A DNA stretch of 64,000 nt from Ferrimonas sp. YFM (GTDB lineage: Bacteria; Pseudomonadota; Gammaproteobacteria; Enterobacterales; Shewanellaceae). The stretch is taken from positions 4,326,839 through 4,390,838 of the forward strand of contig NZ_AP027368.1 in the NCBI RefSeq assembly GCF_030296015.1. The letters run 5' to 3'. This document shows, piece after piece, positions 19,375 to 31,221 of this stretch. The position numbers and the translations under genes were made by a program. Position 1 is the stretch's first letter. Each line of letters begins with the position of its first letter. The notes beneath the pieces are model-generated. The model was not told the DNA's origin. It did no database searches and worked only from the letters and a program-made list of their open reading frames with translations.

Positions 19375-21576
19375 ATGATGAGCAGTTGGAACCGCTTGGG
19401 ACTCGCCCTGCTGGTGGGTTCTTCTTTAATGCTGAGCGCCTGTGACGGCGACGATGGCGCAGACGGTGCCCCAGGGCCTGAGGGGCCTCCCGGACCTCCA
19501 GGGGATCCCGGGCTGCCCAGTGACGGTTTCACCCGAGGCGCCGAGCTGGCCTCGGACGTCACTTTGACCCTGGAGAGCATCACAGTCACCGGGGCCGATC
19601 CCTTTGCCCTGGCCTTCACCGCCTCCGGCAAAAACGAGCGGGGTGAATCCGTGCCCCTGGTCGGCCTGTCCCGTATCGCCCTCTATGTGATGAACCAGAC
19701 CGCCAACAGCAGCGACAGTGGCGCTCCGGTGCAGTGGATCAGCCATACCCAGGCCAACGGTTTTGGCAGCTCCATGTTCTGCACCCCAACGGGCAGCACA
19801 ACCTCCAGGGGCAGTGAGGTCAATGCCTGCACCCTGATGGAAGATCCGGACAATCCGGGCCGCTACACAGGCAGCTGGAGCCACGACGGCAGCGCACCTG
19901 TCATCCTGACGGATGGTGACGCCAACGCCCTGCACCGGGTGGTGATCCGCGCCTACGATCTGACCAACAGCGACGGCGAAGGGGTGGAGGACAAGGTAAT
20001 GTCCCAGCCCAAGGACTTCATACCCGCCACCGGAGCGGACGCCGTTTCGGTCAAAGACAGTGTGGCCAACGCCGCCTGTATCCAGTGCCACGGTGCCCTG
20101 GACGGCTACCCGGAAGGGGACGACCGATTCGCCTCCATATCACGCCACGGCAACTACCAGAAGGTGGAGCAGTGCGTCGCCTGCCATACCCCGGCTCTGG
20201 GGGGCGCAGACTTCGCGCCGATGATTCACGGTATCCATGCGGCGGCCCTGGAGGGGTATGACACCCTTGGCTATCCGGCGGAACTGTTCCAATGCCAGCA
20301 TTGCCACGGTGAGATGGACAGCTGGCAAGCCAATGTCTGGGGCCAGGCCTGTCAGGCCTGTCACACCAGCGAAGCCGCAGCCAACCACATCAGCACCGTC
20401 GGCACAGACCGGGGCTGTAACAGCTGTCACGGCATGGACGCGCCTCCCGCCGGACCTGGCCTGCCCGGGACGGTGGCAGACAACCACATGCCGATGCGCC
20501 GTGCCATGATGGCGGCCACTCCAGGGATGGCGTTTGAGTTCACCTCGGCGGCGGTCAGCGACAACGGCATCGACGATGGCCTGAGCACCCTGACGGTCAC
20601 CGCCAACCTCAGCTTCAATGGCGCCCCGGCGGCAGACGACTTTGACTTCACCCCCTACATGACCAACACGGGCCGCGGCATTCTGCTGGGTAATGTGGCC
20701 AGCGACGGCGTGGTCACCCGCAGTACCACCCTGGATATCCACGGCGACAGAGTCAGCCTGACCGGAGGCGTATTGACGGTGGCCAGAGATCTGGCCGACG
20801 CCAGCCTCACCGGTACCATCTACCTGACCGCCGAAGTGCAGTTCTGCGGTGAGGCGGGCATGGCCATGCCCTGCGAGGCGGACGGCATCGGCTACGCCAA
20901 CCTGGCGCCGGTGGCCTACTACAACCTGGATGGCGGCGATCCCACTCCGGCTCGCCACAGCCAGCCTGATCGGGTGACGGTCACCGAGGCCAGCTGTAAC
21001 GCCTGCCACGACAACCTGACCCATGTAAAAGGCACCCATGGCGCCACCGAGTTCACCCAGTGCATGCATTGTCACAACAGCACCTGGGCAGGCTCCTTCC
21101 ATCCCCAGGTGAACCTGATCAACGACGATGGCAGCTTCACGGCCATACCTGGCCTGACGTACGCCAACCGGGATCTGTTCACCGTGGTACACCGCTATCA
21201 CAGCGGAGCCTGGGACAGCGAAGAAGCGGGCGGGGTGTACCTCAATGGTGACGGCGAACTTCAGGGCTACCCAGCCAGCATCGCCGACTGCGGCGCCTGC
21301 CACACCGAAGGCCAGTCTCTGTTTGCCGCCGACGGCGGCCTGACCTCCGGCAAGCGCGCCATCGCCATCGGCACCGATCAGTACATCACCCCGGTCGCCG
21401 AGAGTTGCCGCAGCTGTCATGCCCATTCCGACGCAGCGGCCCTGGCTCACTTCGAAAGCAATGGGGCCACCACCGCAACGGCTCCGGACAGCAGTGCTGA
21501 CCTGCCGGTAGAGAGCTGTGCCACCTGTCACGCAGAGGGCAAGACCTTCGGCATCGACACGGTTCACGGTCACTGA
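19375..21576 (+). CDS. outer-membrane decaheme cytochrome c lipoprotein, OmcA/MtrC family
   Basis: The 733-residue protein has a lipoprotein signal (MLSAC, lipid Cys near residue 23) and ten CxxCH sites: CIQCH, CVACH, CQHCH, CQACH, CNSCH, CNACH, CMHCH, CGACH, CRSCH and CATCH. They fall in two pentaheme groups separated by beta domains, the MtrC/OmcA plan for surface electron transfer to minerals or flavins. Right after the lipid Cys is a collagen-like Gly-x-y stretch (GADGAPGPEGPPGPPGDPG). No MtrA or MtrB gene adjoins it, so its electron donor must be encoded elsewhere. Confidence 0.9.
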   Translation: MMSSWNRLGLALLVGSSLMLSACDGDDGADGAPGPEGPPGPPGDPGLPSDGFTRGAELASDVTLTLESITVTGADPFALAFTASGKNERGESVPLVGLSRIALYVMNQTANSSDSGAPVQWISHTQANGFGSSMFCTPTGSTTSRGSEVNACTLMEDPDNPGRYTGSWSHDGSAPVILTDGDANALHRVVIRAYDLTNSDGEGVEDKVMSQPKDFIPATGADAVSVKDSVANAACIQCHGALDGYPEGDDRFASISRHGNYQKVEQCVACHTPALGGADFAPMIHGIHAAALEGYDTLGYPAELFQCQHCHGEMDSWQANVWGQACQACHTSEAAANHISTVGTDRGCNSCHGMDAPPAGPGLPGTVADNHMPMRRAMMAATPGMAFEFTSAAVSDNGIDDGLSTLTVTANLSFNGAPAADDFDFTPYMTNTGRGILLGNVASDGVVTRSTTLDIHGDRVSLTGGVLTVARDLADASLTGTIYLTAEVQFCGEAGMAMPCEADGIGYANLAPVAYYNLDGGDPTPARHSQPDRVTVTEASCNACHDNLTHVKGTHGATEFTQCMHCHNSTWAGSFHPQVNLINDDGSFTAIPGLTYANRDLFTVVHRYHSGAWDSEEAGGVYLNGDGELQGYPASIADCGACHTEGQSLFAADGGLTSGKRAIAIGTDQYITPVAESCRSCHAHSDAAALAHFESNGATTATAPDSSADLPVESCATCHAEGKTFGIDTVHGH

Positions 21577-21671: not shown

Positions 21672-22004
21672 ATGAGCAAGAAAGATCAACACACTCCCTC
21701 CCCCCAGGTGGTGGCAGAAGCGGAGAAGATCGCCCGGGCCACCCAGAAGCCGGGGCAGACCAAAGAGCAGACCCGACTCATCGCCAAGGGGATCGAGAAG
21801 GGGATCGCCGAATACAAGAAGCGCGAGAAGGCCAAAGCCCGTGAGCGGGATAAGCTGAAAAAGAAGCAGGTCCGGGCCAAGGCTGACGCCGAGCCTGAAG
21901 CGGTGGCTCAAGCCGAAACCAGTGACAGCAAATCACAGCCCCTGCCCTGGATTCTGCTGGGGATCAGCTGGGCCGGATTCCTCGCCTATCTGCTGACAAG
22001 CTGA
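21672..22004 (+). CDS. DUF2956-type small membrane-anchored protein
   Basis: The 110-residue protein has a conserved-looking N-terminus (ATQKPGQTKEQTRLIAKGIE), a very basic helix (KKREKAKARERDKLKKKQ), an Ala/Glu linker and one C-terminal membrane segment (LPWILLGISWAGFLAYLL). This matches small proteins known as DUF2956 in Shewanella and Vibrio. The function is unknown. It is transcribed alone. Confidence 0.7.
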   Translation: MSKKDQHTPSPQVVAEAEKIARATQKPGQTKEQTRLIAKGIEKGIAEYKKREKAKARERDKLKKKQVRAKADAEPEAVAQAETSDSKSQPLPWILLGISWAGFLAYLLTS

Positions 22005-22033: not shown

Positions 22034-22069
22034 ACGAAATATGGTGACGCAGCAATCACCATATTTCGT
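22034..22069. promoter_or_regulatory. perfect 14-bp inverted repeat, putative activator site of the porin promoter
   Basis: ACGAAATATGGTGA (22034-22047) and its exact reverse complement (22056-22069) flank an 8-nt spacer. The repeat ends 54 bp before the -24 element of the porin's sigma-54 promoter. Single copies of the same element precede the lyase and reductase promoters, so it is probably the binding site of the activator encoded at 23435. Confidence 0.75.
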
Positions 22070-22122
22070 CAATCCCCTTCGCAATTCAAACAATCCCCCA
22101 ACTAAAGGGGTATTTTCTCTTT

Positions 22123-22138
22123 TGGCACGTCCCCTGCT
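22123..22138 (+). promoter_or_regulatory. sigma-54 promoter of the porin gene
   Basis: TGGCAC-GTCCC-CTGCT has GG and GC exactly ten bases apart, as RpoN requires. It is 39 bp before the porin start. Confidence 0.8.
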
Positions 22139-22176
22139 CTCTATTTACCACAACAAAAAACACTCTATAGGTAAAT

Positions 22177-23313
22177 ATGATGATGCCCATGCGTTTGACC
22201 AAATCAGCTTTGGTGATCTCCGCTCTGTTCTCCTCTATGTTCGCGATGAATGCCGCGGCTGAAGATGGAATGAATATCGGCGGCTCCGTTCGCGTTAATT
22301 ACGGCCTTCGTTTTTACGATGACCAGCAGAAAGACAAGGGCGGCGATTTTAATTTCGACGTTCTGACCCTGAAGTTTGACGGCACTCACGGAAAGTGGGG
22401 CCTCTCCAGCGAATATCGCTTCGCCTCCGGCAAACACTTCATCAAGTGGGGCTACGGCTACTACCAGATGAACGACGACCTGCAGATCCAGCTGGGTGTA
22501 AACAAAACCCCCTTTGGTAACCCCGGCTTCATCTCCAACAGCTGGTGGTTCGGCCTGCCCTACTACCTGGGCTTCGAGGATGACTTCGATGTGGGCGCCA
22601 AGGCGGTTCACCACAGTGGTGACCTGACCACAGAGTTTGGTTTCTACAAGAATGGCGAATACAACTCCGGTGACAACAAGGCCTACGCGCCCGACATCTA
22701 CAATGGCGTGGTCAACGGCACCGAGTACAACAACCAGGAAACCAACCAGCTGAACCTGCGCCAGGTGTACAAGCACAGCAGCGGCGAGCTGACCGTCAAA
22801 GCCGGTTACTCCCTGGAGTACGGCCAGATCTACAACACCAAGACCGAGAAGAACGGCGACCGCTACGCCGTGGCCCTGCACATGGACGCCAGCTACCAGG
22901 GCTGGAACCTGCAGCTTCAGGCGATGCAGTACGAGTTCGATGCCGAGAACCCAGAAGGCATGGACAACAACAAGATCGGTCTGGGCGGCGCCGGCTGGCA
23001 GTATGAAGTGGCGTCCAAGGCGCAGATCTACTCCTTCAACATCGCCAAGACCATCCCCACCAGCTTCGGCAGCATCAAGTTCTACAACGACTTCGGCATG
23101 CTGACCCCGGATACCGATGACAGCAGCTTCGATGACAGCTTCCAGAACGTCACCGGTGCCGCCATTTCCGCCGGTCCTGTCTACATCATGGCTGACTTCA
23201 TCCAGGGTAAGAACATGACCTTCTCCACCAAGATGGATGACCACGTAGGCCTGCCTCAGGCCGGCGATGGCTGGGACCAGCGTATCAACATCAACTTCGG
23301 TTACTACTTCTAA
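22177..23313 (+). CDS. outer-membrane porin of the sigma-54 regulon
   Basis: The 378-residue protein has a signal peptide (cleavage after NAAA, about residue 28), alternating beta-strand sequence throughout and a C-terminal aromatic strand (RININFGYYF). It resembles general or phosphate-type 16-strand porins found beside flavocytochrome c genes. It has its own sigma-54 promoter and shares the upstream element with the lyase and reductase, so it probably admits their substrate to the periplasm. ATGs at 22177, 22180, 22183 and 22189 are all possible starts. Confidence 0.82.
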   Translation: MMMPMRLTKSALVISALFSSMFAMNAAAEDGMNIGGSVRVNYGLRFYDDQQKDKGGDFNFDVLTLKFDGTHGKWGLSSEYRFASGKHFIKWGYGYYQMNDDLQIQLGVNKTPFGNPGFISNSWWFGLPYYLGFEDDFDVGAKAVHHSGDLTTEFGFYKNGEYNSGDNKAYAPDIYNGVVNGTEYNNQETNQLNLRQVYKHSSGELTVKAGYSLEYGQIYNTKTEKNGDRYAVALHMDASYQGWNLQLQAMQYEFDAENPEGMDNNKIGLGGAGWQYEVASKAQIYSFNIAKTIPTSFGSIKFYNDFGMLTPDTDDSSFDDSFQNVTGAAISAGPVYIMADFIQGKNMTFSTKMDDHVGLPQAGDGWDQRININFGYYF

Positions 23314-23348
23314 CCCGTTCTCCCCTGTTCAATTTTCCTGACCCTTTT

Positions 23349-23376
23349 GCCACCGCTTCGCGCGGTGGCTTTTTTA
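23349..23376 (+). terminator. terminator of the porin gene
   Basis: GCCACCGC and GCGGTGGC form a stem with a 5-nt loop, followed by seven T. Confidence 0.85.
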
Positions 23377-23388
23377 TGGGCGCGGCTC

Positions 23389-23419
23389 AAAAAAAAGCCG
23401 GGCTCACTGCCCGGCTTTT
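23389..23419 (-). terminator. terminator of the sigma-54 activator gene
   Basis: GCCGGGC and GCCCGGC form a stem with loop TCACT. Minus-strand reading gives a run of eight T. Confidence 0.85.
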
Positions 23420-23434
23420 CCTGTCTCGACTGCC

Positions 23435-24970
23435 CTACATCAATCCCAGCTTCTTCATCCGGCTGCGCAGGGTATTGGGGTGGATCTCCAGCCGCTCGGC
23501 GGCGCCCCCCGGCCCGTGGATCTTACCGCCGGTCAGGCGCAGGGCGTGCTCGATGTACTTGGCGGTCATGGTGTCCAGGGGTACCAGATGATCCCCGGCG
23601 CGGCTGGGGTCAATCACCACGGTCTCGCCGCCGGACGCAATAGGCACCTGATCGTGCTTGCCCGGTGCCAGGAAGTCGAACAGCAGGGGGCCGCCCCTGG
23701 ATTGGATCATCGCCCGCTCCACCGCATTCACCAGCTCTCGCACATTGCCCGGCCAGTCGTAGTTCTGCAGTCGGGACAATTGCTCCGGCGCTATGGTGGG
23801 GAGCCGCTCCAGTTTGAAGCGCACCCGGAACTGCTCCAGCAGATGATGCACCAGCAGGGGAACGTCTCCCCGGCGCTGACGCAAGGCGGGGATGGCGATG
23901 GGGAACACGTTGAGTCGGTACCAGAGATCTTCCCGGAACCCGCCGGCCCGGACCATCTGTTGCAGATCCCTGTGGGTGGCGGCCACCACCCGGATATCCA
24001 GCTCCACCGGCTCCACCCCGCCAACCCTTACTATGGTGCGGCTCTGCAGTACCCTGAGCAGTCGCACCTGGGCAGACAGGGGCAATTCACCCAGCTCATC
24101 CAGGAAGATGGTGCCGCCATTGGCCTGCTCGAAATAGCCCTGCTTGCGCTTCTCGGCGCCGGTAAAGGCCCCCTTCTCGTAGCCGAAGAGTTCGGAATCG
24201 ATCAGGCTGTCCGGGATGGCACCGCAGTTGACCTTGACGAAGGGACGGCCGGCCCGGGCCGAGCGTACGTGGATGGCGTTGGCGATCACCTCTTTACCGC
24301 TGCCGGTCTCCCCCTGAATCAGCACCGTGCTGTCCAGGGGGGCAATGGCTTCCACCTGCTCCATCACCTGCTTAAGTCCGGCGTGGGCGCCAATCACCTC
24401 ATCCCGGCTGTCCATGGTCCGACGCAGGCTGCGGTTCTCCGCTTCCAACTGCGCCTTCTCCGCCAGCAGGTTGCGCCCCTGCAGGTTGAAGGCGGTGACC
24501 ATGGCGAAGGGCTGATGCAGTGACTGCAGCAGATCCCCGTGGCGGGGGCGGAAACTGTGCTCCTCTCTGGAATAGAGCCCCACCACCCCGAGGTGAAAGT
24601 CGTCGCAACGCATCCGCAGCAGCATCACGGATTTGGCGTCGGGGATCAGCTGAGACAACACATGATGGGTCACACTGTCCTGCTCTATGGCATTGAGGAT
24701 GCGGATGGGTGGGCGCTCCCTGTCCGTCAGCCCCTCACACATCTCCGGCGTCAGGGCGATGCGCCGGTCCAGCAGCTGGCCACCGCCGGCATTGGCATGG
24801 GCCAACATCTGTATCTCCTGGCTTTCCGCCACAAAGATGTTGATGTAGATGCCGTCCACCGGAATGTGGTCCGCCAGATACTCCAGGCAGGATTGGAGGG
24901 AGCACTCCAGCTGAAGGCTGCCAGACAGCCGCTGGGTCACCTCATAGAAAAAGCGCAGTTCGGAAGACAT
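23435..24970 (-). CDS. sigma-54-dependent transcriptional activator with N-terminal GAF domain
   Basis: The 511-residue protein has a GAF-like sensor (residues about 5-170) and an AAA+ core with Walker A GETGSGKE, the sigma-54 contact loop GAFTGA and FLDELGELP. A C-terminal Fis-type helix-turn-helix (AAERLEIHPNTLRSRMKKLG) ends the protein. The order is that of FhlA/NorR-type activators. It lies between the porin and the lyase, and all three neighbouring transcription units carry -24/-12 promoters, so it very likely controls them. The GAF domain is the obvious ligand sensor. Confidence 0.9.
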   Translation of the reverse strand: MSSELRFFYEVTQRLSGSLQLECSLQSCLEYLADHIPVDGIYINIFVAESQEIQMLAHANAGGGQLLDRRIALTPEMCEGLTDRERPPIRILNAIEQDSVTHHVLSQLIPDAKSVMLLRMRCDDFHLGVVGLYSREEHSFRPRHGDLLQSLHQPFAMVTAFNLQGRNLLAEKAQLEAENRSLRRTMDSRDEVIGAHAGLKQVMEQVEAIAPLDSTVLIQGETGSGKEVIANAIHVRSARAGRPFVKVNCGAIPDSLIDSELFGYEKGAFTGAEKRKQGYFEQANGGTIFLDELGELPLSAQVRLLRVLQSRTIVRVGGVEPVELDIRVVAATHRDLQQMVRAGGFREDLWYRLNVFPIAIPALRQRRGDVPLLVHHLLEQFRVRFKLERLPTIAPEQLSRLQNYDWPGNVRELVNAVERAMIQSRGGPLLFDFLAPGKHDQVPIASGGETVVIDPSRAGDHLVPLDTMTAKYIEHALRLTGGKIHGPGGAAERLEIHPNTLRSRMKKLGLM

Positions 24971-25243
24971 GGAAACGCTCAGGCAGTTACGAAGTCTCGT
25001 AATGGTAGGTCACAGCTGCAGGGTAAACCGGGGGTCAGGTCATGTATTTATATTTAGCTATATGGGGAATTTTAAAAAATGAAGCCTTGCTATCATTTTT
25101 ATAATCCCTTAATTAAGTTTCGGCTTAATTTCCATTTTGTGCGCCACTGTTTTTTGCGTTTATTATCCTATTAACTCTATTTGAAATACGCTTTAGATCA
25201 CAGTTTTGTTTTTCTGAGCCCGAGGCCACAAAGTACGATTTTT

Positions 25244-25259
25244 TTTGATATTGTTCACA
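25244..25259. promoter_or_regulatory. CRP-like site in the activator-lyase intergenic region
   Basis: TTTGA-TATTGT-TCACA matches the CRP consensus at 9 of 10 half-site bases. It lies 274 bp before the activator start and 176 bp before the lyase -24 element, so it may act on the activator gene. The rest of 24971-25522 is AT-rich and holds no gene. Confidence 0.45.
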
Positions 25260-25347
25260 TCATTAGGCCGAGGCATCTTATTCCTTTGGTGTGACGATGC
25301 CACACTCTCAGCCAGATAAAGCCCTTGGTTAGATTTCGTAGATAACC

Positions 25348-25381
25348 ACGATATCCAGTAAACGGATGTACGAGATATCGT
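25348..25381. promoter_or_regulatory. putative activator site upstream of the lyase promoter
   Basis: ACGAGATATCGT at 25370-25381 matches the element repeated before the porin. It pairs with an inverted ACGATATC at 25348-25355. Its end is 54 bp before the -24 element, the same spacing as at the porin. Confidence 0.6.
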
Positions 25382-25434
25382 AGCTCGGGGCCGCCGATCA
25401 TAGTTCTGCGGCCAAAACCTCCCTTTGGCACGGC

Positions 25435-25450
25435 TGGCACACTAGCTGCA
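25435..25450 (+). promoter_or_regulatory. sigma-54 promoter of the lyase gene
   Basis: TGGCAC-ACTAG-CTGCA has the correct GG-N10-GC spacing. The expected start near 25462 leaves a leader of about 60 nt. Confidence 0.8.
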
Positions 25451-25522
25451 ACCTCAGGGCAAGAGACGAGGGAACCCCCCTGTCCATCGCAGACTAACAA
25501 TAGATAAGCTGGAGATAGTGAA

Positions 25523-27169
25523 GTGAAAGCTGTAACGAGTAAAGTCGCACTTGCCCTTGCCCTTAGCCTGAGCGCCGGTAGCGCCCTGGCCAAGGATACC
25601 ATCGCCCTGAACGGTTTCGACATGACCCTTGATCAGGCGTGGGCCATCGCCAAAGGCGACGCCAACGTGGACATCGCTAAGAAAGCCCACAAGCGTCTGG
25701 ACAAAGCCTTCGACACTTTGATGACCGCCGCACGCCTGGGCAAGCCCGTTTACGGCCTGACCGTAGGTGTGGGCCTGAACAAGGACCACAAGCTGTTTGA
25801 CGCCTCCGGCGAGATGACCGAAGAAGCCCTGAAAGCGTCCCGCGAATTCCAGTATAACGCCCTGCGTGCCCACTCCGCCGCTGTGGGTGAACCCATGCCA
25901 GCCGAACTGGTTCGCCTGGGCATGGTGGTCCGTCTGAACACCCTGCTGCACGGTCAGACCGGTGTACAGCCTGTGGTTGCCGATCTTTATGAAGCCTACC
26001 TGGATCATGACATCGTTCCCGTGGTTCCCTCCAAGGGCACCGTGGGCGAAGCGGACATCCTGATGGCCTCTCACGTAGGCCTGGCGATGCTGGGTGAGTG
26101 GGATGTGTACTACAAGGGCGAGCGCATGAGCTCCTCCAAGGCGATGAAGAAGGCAGGCATCAAGCCTCTGTCTCCCATCGGTAAGGATGCCCTCTCCATC
26201 CTCTCCAACAACTCTTTCGCCACCGCCTACGCCATGCAGGCACTGAAGGATTCCGAGCAGGTTCTGGACGTGGCCCCCACCCTGTTTGGCCTGTCTCTGG
26301 AAGGCCTGAATGGCAACGTTGCCCCCTTCCTGCCCCAGACCAACGACGTGCGTCCTTTCCCCTATGTTCAGGCCACTGCCGACACCATCCTGAACAAACT
26401 GGACGGTTCCTACCTGTGGGAGCTGAACAAGGATCGTCCTCTGCAGGATCCCCTCTCCTTCCGCACCTCCGGCTACACCTTTGCCATGGCCGAAAAGGCG
26501 GCAGACGAGCTGGAGAAGATGCTGAGCATCCACATCAACGCCTCTGACGACAACCCGGCCGTGGTTCTGAACCCAGGCAAGGAGTACGTCAACAAGCCTC
26601 AGGTGGCCAAGTACCTGATCGACGGCAAGGGCGGTGTGTTCCCCACCACCAACTTCAACCCTCTGCCTGTGGCCATGGCGGTACAGCAGCTGAGTGTGGC
26701 CATGACCCAGGTGTCTCACAACTCCGTGATGCGCACCACCCGACTGTCTGACGACCACTTCACCCACCTGCCCCGCTTCCTGACTGCGCCAGGTAACATG
26801 GGCCACGCTTTCGGTGCGGTTCAGAAGGCTTACGTAGATCTGCACGTACGCAACAAGCAGCTGGCTCAGCCTGTCAGCTTCGAGGGTGTGGCCATCGCCG
26901 GCAACATCGAAGACACCTTCACCAACCTGAAGCTGGCGTCCGACAACCTGATCCAGATTGCCGACAACATGAGCTACATCTTCGGCCTCGAGCTGTTCCA
27001 CTCTGCCCAGGCCATTGACCTGCGCAAGATGGACAACCCCAAGCTGAAGCTGGGTAAAGACACCGGCAAGATGTACAAGGAGTACCGCAAACTGGTTAAG
27101 TTCGTGGATAAGGATCGTCCTTACACTCCTGACTTCCAGGCCTCTTCCGAGTTCGTGAAAGCCTACTAA
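25523..27169 (+). CDS. exported MIO-less member of the aromatic amino acid lyase superfamily (ergothionase-like)
   Basis: The 548-residue protein starts at GTG 25523 with GGAGA seven bases upstream. A Sec signal peptide (cleavage after SALA, residue 23) sends it to the periplasm; ordinary histidine ammonia-lyases are cytosolic. The fold signatures are present: VYG with Tyr77, His117 in AHSAAVGEP, Asn229-Asn230, QDPLSFR (308-314) and Glu463 in NIED. The loop VPSKGTVG is followed by Glu176-Ala177-Asp178 where active enzymes have Ala-Ser-Gly, so no MIO cofactor can form. Tyr of the usual QDPYSLR is Leu311. Ergothionase, which releases trimethylamine from ergothioneine, is the known MIO-less relative. 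The substrate here is inferred, not shown. Confidence 0.8.
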   Translation: MKAVTSKVALALALSLSAGSALAKDTIALNGFDMTLDQAWAIAKGDANVDIAKKAHKRLDKAFDTLMTAARLGKPVYGLTVGVGLNKDHKLFDASGEMTEEALKASREFQYNALRAHSAAVGEPMPAELVRLGMVVRLNTLLHGQTGVQPVVADLYEAYLDHDIVPVVPSKGTVGEADILMASHVGLAMLGEWDVYYKGERMSSSKAMKKAGIKPLSPIGKDALSILSNNSFATAYAMQALKDSEQVLDVAPTLFGLSLEGLNGNVAPFLPQTNDVRPFPYVQATADTILNKLDGSYLWELNKDRPLQDPLSFRTSGYTFAMAEKAADELEKMLSIHINASDDNPAVVLNPGKEYVNKPQVAKYLIDGKGGVFPTTNFNPLPVAMAVQQLSVAMTQVSHNSVMRTTRLSDDHFTHLPRFLTAPGNMGHAFGAVQKAYVDLHVRNKQLAQPVSFEGVAIAGNIEDTFTNLKLASDNLIQIADNMSYIFGLELFHSAQAIDLRKMDNPKLKLGKDTGKMYKEYRKLVKFVDKDRPYTPDFQASSEFVKAY

Positions 27170-27188
27170 GGGTTATCTCACCCTGGTA

Positions 27189-27212
27189 AAGCCGGCCCTC
27201 GGGCCGGCTTTT
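27189..27212 (+). terminator. terminator of the lyase gene
   Basis: AAGCCGGCCC and GGGCCGGCTT form a 10-bp stem followed by TT. It separates the lyase transcript from the reductase, which has its own promoter. Confidence 0.8.
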
Positions 27213-27309
27213 GCGTTCCTCGAAATCACCAAATGTCGCAATCGAAAGATCCGCATCACAAAGACCCGCCAACAACAGATAAGAAACTTTCCAAATCCAC
27301 ACTTAACTT

Positions 27310-27376
27310 ACGAAAATCACTCCAACAACTCGTAATCAATCACCATATCTCGTGACGCCTTAAGCCGACATTTCGT
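27310..27376. promoter_or_regulatory. putative activator sites upstream of the reductase promoter
   Basis: On the minus strand 27340-27353 reads ACGAGATATGGTGA, one base different from the porin repeat. Partial copies lie at 27310-27316 (ACGAAAA) and 27370-27376 (ACGAAAT, minus strand). The main site is 77 bp before the -24 element. The remaining 27213-27488 sequence shows nothing else. Confidence 0.6.
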
Positions 27377-27429
27377 GCTTATGTGGGGCGGCTCATGAAT
27401 CTGGGCCTTTTCCCCCCACCTGGCCAGGG

Positions 27430-27445
27430 TGGCACGGCCACTGCA
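27430..27445 (+). promoter_or_regulatory. sigma-54 promoter of the reductase-cytochrome operon
   Basis: TGGCAC-GGCCA-CTGCA is the third -24/-12 element of the cluster with identical core hexamers. It is 44 bp before the reductase start. Confidence 0.8.
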
Positions 27446-27488
27446 GTGTTCAGGCATCACTTTGCCAAGGTGCACTGGAGAATTAACT

Positions 27489-29045
27489 ATGAGTCACCAA
27501 CACAACACCAACCCCTCCCGCCGGGCGCTGCTGAAGCAGGGTGCCGCCCTGGCCGCCGGCATGGGCGGCCTGATGGTTGCCGGCCCGAGCGCCGCCGCCT
27601 CCTCATCCCCCAGCCCCAAGTTTGACGAGATCTTCGACATCATCGTGGTCGGTTCCGGTTTTGCCGGCATGTCTGCCGCCGTTCAGGCCGCCGAAGAGGG
27701 TGCCAAGGTACTGGTTATCGACAAGATGCCGGTATTCGGCGGCAACTCCACCATCAATGGCGGCGCCATGGCCGTCGCAGGTTCCGGCCTTCAGGCCAAA
27801 TCCAGCATCGAAGACAGCGTGGATCTGATGGTGTCCGACATGCTCAAGTCCGGCCGCGGCATGAACGATGTGGAGATGCTGAAGCTGGTGTGCGACGGTA
27901 CCGCCGAATCCGCCCGTTGGCTGGAGAGCTACGGCACCGTGTGGAAGCCCTTCGTTCAGCACTTCGGTGGTCACTCTGTGCCCCGGGTTCTGCAAACCAG
28001 AGAGAGCTCCGGTGCCGGCATCATTCGTCCCCTGATTGCGGCAGCGAAGAAGGCGGGCGTCACCATGTACAAGCAGAGCAAACTGACCGCCTTCGTCCAG
28101 GATGAACAACACCGGGTGATTGGTGTAAAGGTCAAGAGCGGTTACTTCTTCCCCAAAGAGCGCACCGGCAGTGACAAACTGCTGGGGGCACGCAAAGGGG
28201 TGATCATGGCCACCGGCGGTTTTGGTCGGGACATCCCCTTCCGCCAGATGCAGCAGCCCAGGCTCACCTCTGAGTTGGACTCCACCAACCATCCTGGCGC
28301 CAACGCTGACGCCCTCAAGCAGATGATGCTGATCGGCGCCAACCCCATCCACCTGGACCAGATCCAGTTGGGCCCCTGGTCCTCCCCGGATGAAAAAGGC
28401 TTCGGTACCGCCTCTCAGTTCAACACCGCCGCCACCTATCAGAACGGCATCGTGGTCGACGTTCGCACCGGTGAACGCTTCTTCAACGAACTGGCGGATC
28501 GCAAAGCCCGGGCAGAGGCGATCATGACCCGCCGGGACGAGCAGGGCCAACCGGTCTACCCCGTCGGTTTCACCAATGAAAAGGGCGCGGCCAAGGCGCA
28601 GACCCTGGAGTGGGGTCTGAAGTACGACGTGATCAAGAAGGCGGACACCCTGGAGGAGCTGGCGGGCCTCTACGGCATCCCGGCGGAGAAGCTGAAGGCC
28701 CAGGTGGCCCAGTGGAACCAGTATGTGCGCGATGGCGAAGACAAGCAGTTTGGCCGCCCCTTGATGAAGGCATTCGAGCTGACCCAAGGCCCCTGGTACG
28801 CGGTGCGCATGTGGCCCAAGGTGCACTACTGCATGGGCGGCGTCCGGGTGAACACCCACTCTCAGGTGCTGCACCTGATCTCTGACAAACCGATTCCTGG
28901 CCTGTTCGCCGCCGGTGAAGCCACTGGCGGCATCCACGGTGCCTCCCGACTGGGCGCCTGCGCCGTGGCCGAAGGGGTAGTGACCGGCCGTAATGCCGCT
29001 CGCAGCGCCGTCAAGGCAGACGCCGTTTCCCTGAAGCTGGCCTGA
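27489..29045 (+). CDS. Tat-exported FAD-dependent fumarate-reductase-like enoate reductase subunit
   Basis: The start is ATG 27489 (GGAG at 27477-27480). The 518-residue protein has a twin-arginine signal (SRRALLKQGAAL), an FAD site (IIVVGSGFAGMSAAVQAAE, NSTINGGAM) and the fumarate reductase/UrdA fold. The proton-donor Arg338 (ELADRKAR), His446 (VHYCMGG) and Arg487 (GASRLG) are kept. The His that binds a fumarate carboxylate in FccA is Gly295 (QLGPW), so fumarate is unlikely. The haem domain is absent and supplied by the next gene. Probable role: periplasmic reduction of the unsaturated acid made by the lyase (urocanate- or thiourocanate-like). Confidence 0.85.
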   Translation: MSHQHNTNPSRRALLKQGAALAAGMGGLMVAGPSAAASSSPSPKFDEIFDIIVVGSGFAGMSAAVQAAEEGAKVLVIDKMPVFGGNSTINGGAMAVAGSGLQAKSSIEDSVDLMVSDMLKSGRGMNDVEMLKLVCDGTAESARWLESYGTVWKPFVQHFGGHSVPRVLQTRESSGAGIIRPLIAAAKKAGVTMYKQSKLTAFVQDEQHRVIGVKVKSGYFFPKERTGSDKLLGARKGVIMATGGFGRDIPFRQMQQPRLTSELDSTNHPGANADALKQMMLIGANPIHLDQIQLGPWSSPDEKGFGTASQFNTAATYQNGIVVDVRTGERFFNELADRKARAEAIMTRRDEQGQPVYPVGFTNEKGAAKAQTLEWGLKYDVIKKADTLEELAGLYGIPAEKLKAQVAQWNQYVRDGEDKQFGRPLMKAFELTQGPWYAVRMWPKVHYCMGGVRVNTHSQVLHLISDKPIPGLFAAGEATGGIHGASRLGACAVAEGVVTGRNAARSAVKADAVSLKLA

Positions 29046-29059
29046 GGAGCACCCAATCC

Positions 29060-29473
29060 ATGAAAAGAGCAACCATGATCAAAGCCATCCCCTCCCTGGC
29101 CGCCCTGTTGATGGCCGCCACCGTCGGCCTGTCACTGCCCGCCATGGCCGCCAAGATGCCGCTGAAGTCCTATCACAAGGAGATCTTCAGCGACGACAAA
29201 GGCAACGTGGAGTGCAGCAGTTGCCACGGCGACAGCAAGCCCTACACCATCCCGGATGAGGACGCCTGCCTGACCTGCCACGGCAGCAAGGAGGACCTGG
29301 CCGAGGAGACCGAACGTCCCGGTCACGGCGCCGCCTACGAACCCAACCCCCATGACAGCCTGCACTATGGTCAGGATCTGAGCTGTGTCTACTGCCACGC
29401 CCAGCACAAGAAGACCGAGGTGTACTGCAACAACTGCCACGAGTTCAAATACCCCGAGCTCAAGCGCAAATAA
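29060..29473 (+). CDS. tetraheme cytochrome c subunit of the split flavocytochrome
   Basis: The 137-residue protein has a Sec signal (cleavage near PAMAA, residue 31) and four haem sites: CSSCH, CLTCH, CVYCH and CNNCH. This is the tetraheme cytochrome c3-like module normally fused to the N-terminus of FccA/UrdA reductases. The gene begins 14 bp after the flavoprotein stop, so the two subunits are made together. It should feed electrons, probably from a membrane quinol dehydrogenase, into the FAD subunit. Confidence 0.88.
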   Translation: MKRATMIKAIPSLAALLMAATVGLSLPAMAAKMPLKSYHKEIFSDDKGNVECSSCHGDSKPYTIPDEDACLTCHGSKEDLAEETERPGHGAAYEPNPHDSLHYGQDLSCVYCHAQHKKTEVYCNNCHEFKYPELKRK

Positions 29474-30549: not shown

Positions 30550-31161
30550 TCAATCCTGCTTCTTGGCCAGGTAGTTAACCAGTTCGCTGAGCTGTTCGGC
30601 GCTCTCCAGGCTGCCCATCTCCACCTGATACTTGCCGTTGACGATCAGCGCGGGCACACCGCGGATACCGGAGTCGATCTGCTCCTTCTTCCACTTCTTC
30701 ACCTTGGCGTTCACCATAAAGCTGTTCATCGCCTTATCGTACTTGTCGCCGTCAACGCCGTTGTCCACAAACAGCTGCTTCACATCGGAACCGGTGGAGA
30801 ACTGCTTACGGGCATCGTGAATGGCGGAGAACAGAGGCTTTTTCACCTGGTCACCCACCTTGAGGGTCTGCATCACCGCCAGGGCCTTGGTCATCTCCAC
30901 GCCCATGGGGCCACCGATGAAGTCCACGTGCTTCTGCTCAAACTTGATCCCCTCATCCAGCCCCTTCTTCAGGTTGGGCAGGTGCACCTTCTCGAAGGTG
31001 TAGCAGTGGGGGCAGTAGAAAGAGAAAAACTCGGTTACCGTTGGCTGGCCCTGCACCTTGGCCTGGCTGACCACCTTGTAGTGGGTTCCCTCTTCAAACT
31101 GGGCGGCCATGGCCATGGGGGCCAGCACCAGGGCGAAGAGGATGGCGAATAGTTTCTTCAT
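30550..31161 (-). CDS. dsbA: periplasmic thiol:disulfide oxidoreductase DsbA
   Basis: The 203-residue protein has a signal peptide (cleavage after AMAA, residue 20), the CPHC active site in FYCPHCYTF and the cis-Pro loop GVPALIVNGKY. It introduces disulfides into exported proteins. srkA lies 60 bp upstream, the same neighbour as in E. coli. Confidence 0.95.
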   Translation of the reverse strand: MKKLFAILFALVLAPMAMAAQFEEGTHYKVVSQAKVQGQPTVTEFFSFYCPHCYTFEKVHLPNLKKGLDEGIKFEQKHVDFIGGPMGVEMTKALAVMQTLKVGDQVKKPLFSAIHDARKQFSTGSDVKQLFVDNGVDGDKYDKAMNSFMVNAKVKKWKKEQIDSGIRGVPALIVNGKYQVEMGSLESAEQLSELVNYLAKKQD

Positions 31162-31221
31162 AATCTCTACTCTGAATCAAAGGGTTGAATTGGCAACTAC
31201 TGTGCCACAGCCCGGGGCAAA

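Follow-up and report, generated by a model that had tools for sequence, protein, structure and literature searches.

A conserved, jointly controlled gene set in a marine Ferrimonas and its possible role in periplasmic betaine respiration

Described relatives of the Ferrimonas gene set

Lyases that release amines and reductases that respire unsaturated acids in the periplasm have been described separately, and homologues of both are brought together in a gene set of Ferrimonas sp. YFM. The set lies in a 64,000-nucleotide stretch of contig NZ_AP027368.1 (positions 4,326,839 to 4,390,838; hereafter the window, within which coordinates are counted). Five genes were confirmed between 22034 and 29473, encoding a porin, a sigma-54-dependent activator, an exported aromatic-lyase homologue which has lost the 4-methylideneimidazol-5-one (MIO) group, a flavoprotein and a tetraheme cytochrome. 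The closest described lyase is ergothionase, the ergothioneine trimethylamine-lyase of Treponema denticola (PDB 6s7j and 6s7q), which has the same fold, the same loss of MIO, the same Tyr/two Lys/Glu residues and the same Gly/Lys pair as the window lyase. That ergothionase lacks MIO is stated in the available text of PMC13405746. The two proteins share 36–37% identity, but the window lyase adds an export leader and is tied to a reductase and a sigma-54-dependent activator, its activity being predicted. Histidine ammonia-lyase (HAL, HutH) also shares the fold, with aligned Tyr, His, Arg, Phe and Glu residues, whereas the window lyase is MIO-less, carries a leader and lies outside a hut operon.

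Among the reductases, UrdA of Shewanella oneidensis (PDB 6t85) has the same flavin adenine dinucleotide domain as the window flavoprotein P0002, with equivalents of Arg411, His520 and Arg560, and also serves periplasmic respiration of an unsaturated acid. P0002 differs in lacking Tyr373, Asp388 and Glu177, in having no fused FMN_bind domain among its Pfam matches and in being accompanied by a separate tetraheme cytochrome. UrdA-type genes, furthermore, sit beside a different, paralogous lyase. The methacrylate system Mrd/Mcc of Geobacter sulfurreducens AM-1 likewise pairs a separate periplasmic flavin reductase with a tetraheme cytochrome, the signal peptides of the two being different, although its substrate is methacrylate or acrylate and, in the accessible parts of PMC4427408, its operon is described without a lyase. 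The authors of that work suggest there that reductases of the Mrd kind use acids supplied by lyases (DddY). Meanwhile, Bacteroides xylanisolvens is reported to draw by cross-feeding on thiourocanate, the ergothionase product, for anaerobic growth and ATP synthesis (Zhou et al. 2025, via the available text of PMC13405746, which also names Clostridium symbiosum, citing the same study, as having ergothionase activity). As described there, this exchange in the gut involves two organisms, whereas the window holds one co-regulated set with export leaders.

The Ferrimonas locus is a conserved, jointly controlled gene set in which the pairing of lyase and reductase is well supported. We read it as a periplasmic betaine-respiration module with ergothioneine as the most likely substrate, and give this reading a probability of about 0.55. 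A betaine would enter through the porin, and the exported MIO-less lyase would remove trimethylamine by acid/base catalysis, in the manner of ergothionase, to leave a trans-unsaturated imidazole acid. The exported flavoprotein would reduce the C=C bond of this acid, drawing on the dedicated tetraheme cytochrome for electrons, which would reach that cytochrome from the quinol pool via one of three CymA/NapC-type quinol dehydrogenases. Ergothioneine would in this way be converted to thiourocanate and then to its propionate. The dehydrogenase side of the chain, and not the reductase, would supply the energy, as is also the case in CymA-dependent fumarate respiration. The activator, whose signal is probably the betaine or the acid, would turn on the porin, lyase and reductase genes jointly via sigma-54 promoters.

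Family assignments were clear for four of the five products. The lyase matched PF00221 (415.5 bits), the flavoprotein PF00890 (258.3 bits) and TIGR01813 (484.2 bits), the cytochrome PF14537 (57.3 bits) and the activator, in the family search, PF00158 (237.1 bits) and HTH_8. The porin gave no match in Pfam and NCBIfam searches; its AlphaFold model is beta-rich, with a predicted local distance difference test score (pLDDT) of 73, and 48 of the 50 Foldseek rows listed for it are porins or outer-membrane channels, the remaining two being titled artificial metalloproteins. The nearest solved relative of the lyase, in both sequence and structure, is the Treponema ergothionase, and the solved structures closest to the flavoprotein are of the FccA type and UrdA. 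The flavoprotein leader contains SRRALLK, and three CymA/NapC-type proteins (PF03264 above cut-off) are encoded in the same genome. A preliminary description had proposed a row of porin, activator, Sec-exported lyase, flavoprotein exported by twin-arginine translocation and tetraheme cytochrome, with which the coordinates, family matches and leaders agree.

Conservation of the set and recurrence of the pairing

The lyase found matches in 54 of 146 genomes of the family at an E-value of 1e-60, with an ortholog (65% or more) in 52, and orthologs of the reductase (69% or more) are present in 53. The two orthologs occur together in 52 genomes and the lyase ortholog occurs alone in none; Fisher's p of 4e-39 for this co-occurrence ignores relatedness and is not used. 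Loci were examined in 20 of the 51 other genomes holding a lyase ortholog. In all 20, lyase, reductase, tetraheme cytochrome and activator lie within 8 kb, the activator homologue being 53–99% identical. The reductase is in each case a free flavoprotein with an adjoining tetraheme cytochrome, both with export leaders (20/20), and the cytochrome always has four CXXCH motifs. Twin arginines are found in the reductase leaders of all 20 loci by eye and of 14 by a stricter pattern. In genus g2, which is probably Shewanella since UrdA of S. oneidensis groups with the UrdA-type genes of g2, all 12 loci have the activator divergent from reductase, lyase and cytochrome, in that order on one strand. At L060 the activator and reductase genes are separated by a porin gene, and in genome G143 the reductase frame contains two stops.

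The orthologs (group A) form one clade in the lyase tree and one in the reductase tree, with Shimodaira–Hasegawa-like approximate likelihood-ratio support of 99 and 99; the lyase tree, from which the G286 row is absent and in which long branches meet, is used for its broad split and for group A only. In a thin sample at the class level, one of 369 genomes besides that of Ferrimonas sp. YFM matched the lyase at 1e-100 (G286, 40–41% identity), and 19.5 kb of this genome gave no match to the other four window proteins. At the phylum level, in an equally thin sample of 398 genomes, the lyase was matched in its own genome only. Plasmid records hold relatives of up to 46.7%. A record titled Marinobacter nauticus (L096), perhaps mislabelled or from a mixed assembly, holds a 76% lyase fitting Ferrimonas. 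At L116, in genome G002, homologues of the reductase, tetraheme cytochrome and activator adjoin a protein of 262 amino acids without a Pfam match.

The pairing recurs among paralogs. Twenty further loci carry paralogous lyases (31–49% identity) and hold 21 of the 24 paralog matches; of the other three, that of the own genome was read in L017, one lies in L056, and G123:C1:4364340 was left out. At 19 of the 20, the exception being L070, the paralogous lyase has a flavocytochrome-type reductase no more than 5 kb away, and a porin homologue adjoins several of these loci also. The reductase gene is of UrdA type at L071–L078, UrdA-like and split forms are both present at L079, and split reductases with a tetraheme cytochrome are found at L080–L089. 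The L071 reductase matches solved UrdA with 755 bits, and Tyr373 and Asp388 are kept in the L071–L079 reductases. Lyase and reductase are 131–194 bp apart at four of the eight L071–L078 loci and 4.1–4.8 kb apart at L074, L075, L077 and L078. The L075 gap holds genes for a response-regulator-like protein, a kinase-like protein and a Tsx-type channel, and L072 has a response regulator and a kinase-like gene; family searches covered the L075 channel and the L072 pair. Leaders were seen by eye in 21 of 22 paralogous lyases (7/8 in L071–L078); the one without, that of L078, begins close to the end of a contig. The L071–L078 pairing possibly provides a hercynine route to imidazole propionate. The pairing of lyase and reductase, as first proposed, is supported: it persists from genome to genome and is met again with paralogs, some of which stand as a group beside a genuine urocanate reductase.

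A second set in the own genome (G000:C1:3507039–3518117; L017 4040–15118) comprises two reductase–cytochrome pairs, two porins and a 37% lyase, which is MIO-less and in which the equivalents of HAL His83 and ergothionase Lys435 are both missing. A chemoreceptor gene follows it. The lyases of L081–L089 have also lost the His83 equivalent, and because of this loss their substrates and that of the L017 lyase should differ again. Two plasmid-borne genes carry ammonia-lyase names. The 'hutH' of Sinorhizobium meliloti pSymA (L100), 42% identical to the window lyase, has no MIO motif and, by eye, has a leader; its database name is probably wrong. An 'aromatic amino acid ammonia-lyase' on a Klebsiella pneumoniae plasmid (L103) lies beside hutC and an ABC transporter, has no Ala-Ser-Gly (loop Gly-Ser-Val-Gly-Tyr-Leu) and falls outside the ergothionase clade, and by these features is a second MIO-less line.

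These loci may represent a general form of betaine respiration, to which we would give an even chance. Periplasmic amine elimination by a MIO-less lyase would make a terminal acceptor that is then reduced, and several substrate-specific versions would coexist in one bacterial family: a sigma-54-controlled ergothioneine type, a UrdA-linked type (possibly converting hercynine to urocanate and then to imidazole propionate, with release of trimethylamine) and at least one type with neither pocket.

Active-site residues and local control

In the alignment, the HAL motif Gly-Ser-Val-Gly-Ala-Ser-Gly-Asp is replaced in the lyase by Gly-Thr-Val-Gly-Glu-Ala-(gap)-Asp, so that MIO is lost, and the hutH model scores 270.1 bits, below its cut-off of 539.15. 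A plain histidine or tyrosine ammonia-lyase is ruled out by this loss. Two MIO-type lyases are encoded elsewhere in the genome, one in an aryl-polyene-like cluster, some 118 kb and 53 kb from the nearest above-cut-off flavocytochrome match. Tyr77, Lys87, Lys435 and Glu463 are kept in all 21 group A rows and in T. denticola ergothionase. Group A also keeps the equivalents of HAL Tyr53, His83, Arg283, Phe329 and Glu414 (21/21). Common to group A and ergothionase are, in addition, Lys87 within GVG-x-NKD, Ser for HAL Asn195 and Leu for Tyr280 (21/21). Leader, MIO loss and shared residues together uphold the assignment, already made in the preliminary description, of an exported MIO-less lyase, here placed in the ergothionase type.

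Because Lys87 is also present in the UrdA-linked lyases, the substrate argument is carried by positions 431 and 435. Group A without exception (21/21), and ergothionase likewise, has Gly431 for HAL Met382 and Lys435 for HAL Val386, while all eight UrdA-linked lyases have Tyr and Asn here and none has Gly/Lys. The helix of these residues presumably lines the aromatic pocket. Gly431 would make room, and Lys435, lying a turn further along the helix, could bind the thione's sulfur, the only atom by which the ring of ergothioneine differs from that of hercynine; the Tyr/Asn pair would match a sulfur-free ring. Ergothioneine is favoured, as the best single guess, because of these two replacements, fixed in the orthologs and absent from the UrdA-linked paralogs. 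The Gly/Lys pair also occurs in two Paracoccus plasmid relatives and two Ferrimonas paralogs (L070 and the second lyase of L056).

In the reductases, Arg411, His520 and Arg560 (UrdA numbers) are kept in all 44 aligned sequences. The urocanate-pocket residues of UrdA, including Tyr373 and Asp388 (for which Asn or Gln may stand), are taken as named in the available text of PMC7921117. Split reductases have Gly-Pro-Trp where UrdA has Tyr373-Pro, and those of group A have Gly and Ala/Ile at the Tyr373 and Asp388 columns and are missing Glu177 too. Membership of the window reductase in UrdA was rejected on account of these missing residues. The catalytic Arg-His-Arg and the adjacent cytochrome bear out a split UrdA/FccA-like reductase with its own tetraheme partner.

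Sigma-54-type promoters precede the porin, lyase and reductase genes (Table 1). With a GG-N10-GC score whose maximum is 16.3, the lyase site reaches 16.0 and the reductase site 16.3; of random 550-bp stretches, drawn from the window alone and not from genus g2, 12.1% reach 14 and 5.0% reach 15. At L050 and L051 the equivalent site before the porin has the full score of 16.3. At the eight Ferrimonas and g5 loci, sites of 14.5–16.3 stand before both lyase and reductase with two misses, the lyase of L056 (11.5) and the reductase of L057 (12.5). In genus g2 (L058–L069), where the reductase is the first of three genes, the best site upstream of it scores 14.1–16.0 of 16.3 at all 12 loci. The three promoters are credible because of their quality, position and conservation, the count of the pattern being insufficient by itself: with up to two mismatches, it is not above chance in the window (36 against 45.7 expected).

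A palindrome, ACGA-N4-TCGT, occurs in exact form 31 times within the upstream zones of the 20 ortholog loci (14,614 bp) and 8 times within the rest of their sequence (372,904 bp), and is present in 17 of these loci; the motif was first spotted in the same zones and the loci are related, so the enrichment is given as a description without a probability. A stricter form, ACGANATNTSGTGA, occurs four times in the own genome, three of them in this locus, and its reversed control once. This pattern looks like that of a dedicated local regulon. At the paralogous loci an activator homologue is present only in L080 (27%), and the best promoter-like scores do not exceed 14.7, L070 excepted (15.0). The proposal that everything stands under one sigma-54 regulon is supported, at the level of sequence features, by the promoters, the activator and the shared upstream sites, but lyase and reductase have separate promoters in the window, and a one-operon arrangement is found only in genus g2.

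Table 1. Features of the gene set, in window coordinates
Feature	Position	Strand	Details
Candidate activator site before porin	22034..22069	.	perfect inverted repeat ACGAAATATGGTGA / TCACCATATTTCGT, arms 22034-22047 and 22056-22069
Sigma-54-type -24/-12 promoter before porin	22123..22138	+	TGGCACGTCCCCTGCT; pattern TGGCAC-N5-CTGC
Porin P0005	22177..23313	+	378 amino acids; outer-membrane
Sigma-54-dependent activator P0004	23435..24970	-	511 amino acids; divergent from lyase
Candidate activator sites before lyase	25348..25383	.	ACGATATCCAGT and ACGAGATATCGT
Sigma-54-type promoter before lyase	25435..25450	+	TGGCACACTAGCTGCA; pattern TGGCAC-N5-CTGC
MIO-less aromatic-lyase homologue, ergothionase type, P0001	25523..27169	+	548 amino acids; GTG start; Sec-type leader (by eye)
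Terminator-like hairpin and T-run 3' of lyase	27191..27213	+	sequence, by eye
Candidate activator sites before reductase	27226..27353	.	27226-27239 (3 mismatches); 27340-27353 (1 mismatch)
Sigma-54-type promoter before reductase	27430..27445	+	TGGCACGGCCACTGCA; pattern TGGCAC-N5-CTGC
Flavocytochrome-c-type ene-reductase flavoprotein P0002	27489..29045	+	518 amino acids counted from ATG; twin-arginine leader
Exported tetraheme c-type cytochrome P0003	29060..29473	+	137 amino acids; four CXXCH

Upstream of the porin lies a gene for a decaheme cytochrome of the OmcA/MtrC family (19375–21576; TIGR03507, 273.9 bits), whose membership of the regulon is only conceivable, followed by a DUF2956 gene (21672–22004). 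A further sigma-54-like match, TGGCACAGTAGTTGCC (31192–31207, minus strand), precedes a gene at 30550–31161 whose product we take to be DsbA-like from its CPHC motif; this match is probably due to chance. Rfam, at gathering scores, gave no match in the window.

Alternative readings and significance

Several points weigh against respiration of ergothioneine as proposed here. Catalytic activity of the exported lyases is predicted from homology, the essential role of Tyr, two Lys and Glu in ergothionase is our assumption, and the contact between Lys and thione is deduced from sequence. The UrdA-linked lyases have Lys87, Tyr77 and Glu463 as well, which leaves the Gly/Lys pair as sole discriminator, and in the lyase model pLDDT falls below 50 at residues 83–87 and 174–179, the loops of Lys87 and of the former MIO site. 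A reductase without Tyr373, Asp388 and Glu177 need not accept an imidazole acid. A porin homologue is present in only 6 of the 20 ortholog stretches. Two more such points concern Paracoccus saliphilus and G002 and favour particular alternatives.

The strongest alternative, though an unlikely one, is that the same machinery acts on hercynine (histidine betaine) or a related sulfur-free imidazole betaine to give urocanate or a close acid. The lyase keeps the imidazole-side His and Glu of HAL (His117 and Glu463), cyanobacteria commonly contain hercynine, and a P. saliphilus relative with the same residues follows hutIHGU and fits hercynine equally well. However, the reductase is without the urocanate-pocket residues kept by the UrdA-linked loci, and the lyases of those loci, the expected urocanate makers, are without the group A Gly/Lys pair (8/8). 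It appears rather improbable that the substrate is not an imidazole at all, for example tyrosine betaine converted to coumarate, with a cinnamate-type acceptor being respired. The Gly-Pro-Trp in place of Tyr373-Pro and the missing Asp388 would suit such an acid, and the lyase scaffold tolerates large pocket changes, His being lost in the 31–38% paralog groups; yet His117, Glu463 and the Gly/Lys pair, kept in all 21 group A rows, argue for a thio-imidazole.

There is little to recommend a third view, in which the two enzymes are co-regulated but not sequential, the lyase serving nitrogen supply or detoxification and the reductase respiring an unrelated enoate of the same niche. G002 has the reductase, cytochrome and activator and no match to the lyase, and the available text of PMC13405746 discusses ergothionase as a possible route to ergothioneine nitrogen. 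Against this, paralogous lyases are paired again with different reductases, including the UrdA type, the order reductase–lyase–cytochrome on one strand is constant in genus g2 (12/12), and lyase and reductase both have export leaders. It is very improbable, finally, that the lyase, as a HAL derivative, serves in the periplasm for binding or sensing without catalysis, as might be supposed from the loss of MIO, since ergothionase is active without it (PMC13405746, as far as its available text goes) and group A shows no variation at the candidate catalytic residues.

Ergothionase, UrdA and the split methacrylate reductase are each known separately. Of the 'new respiration module' claimed at the outset, a split flavoprotein with a tetraheme cytochrome was known and growth with thiourocanate had been reported (PMC4427408 and PMC13405746, in the parts available), but the combination appears to be new: a single regulated and exported unit of lyase and reductase, the return of this unit with other reductases, and a MIO-less lyase linked to UrdA. 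No such module was found in the open-access literature searched, which is weak evidence as most subscription journals fall outside that scope.

If respiration of ergothioneine is the correct reading, this compound and related betaines, which come from fungi and cyanobacteria, would be respiratory substrates, and the cell would produce its electron acceptor extracytoplasmically, out of a compound that is not usually regarded as one. It would also give a function to a protein clade of which some members are annotated as histidine ammonia-lyase, and identify a source of trimethylamine. Through the UrdA-linked paralogs, in turn, imidazole propionate might be reached by a route with a starting compound other than free histidine.

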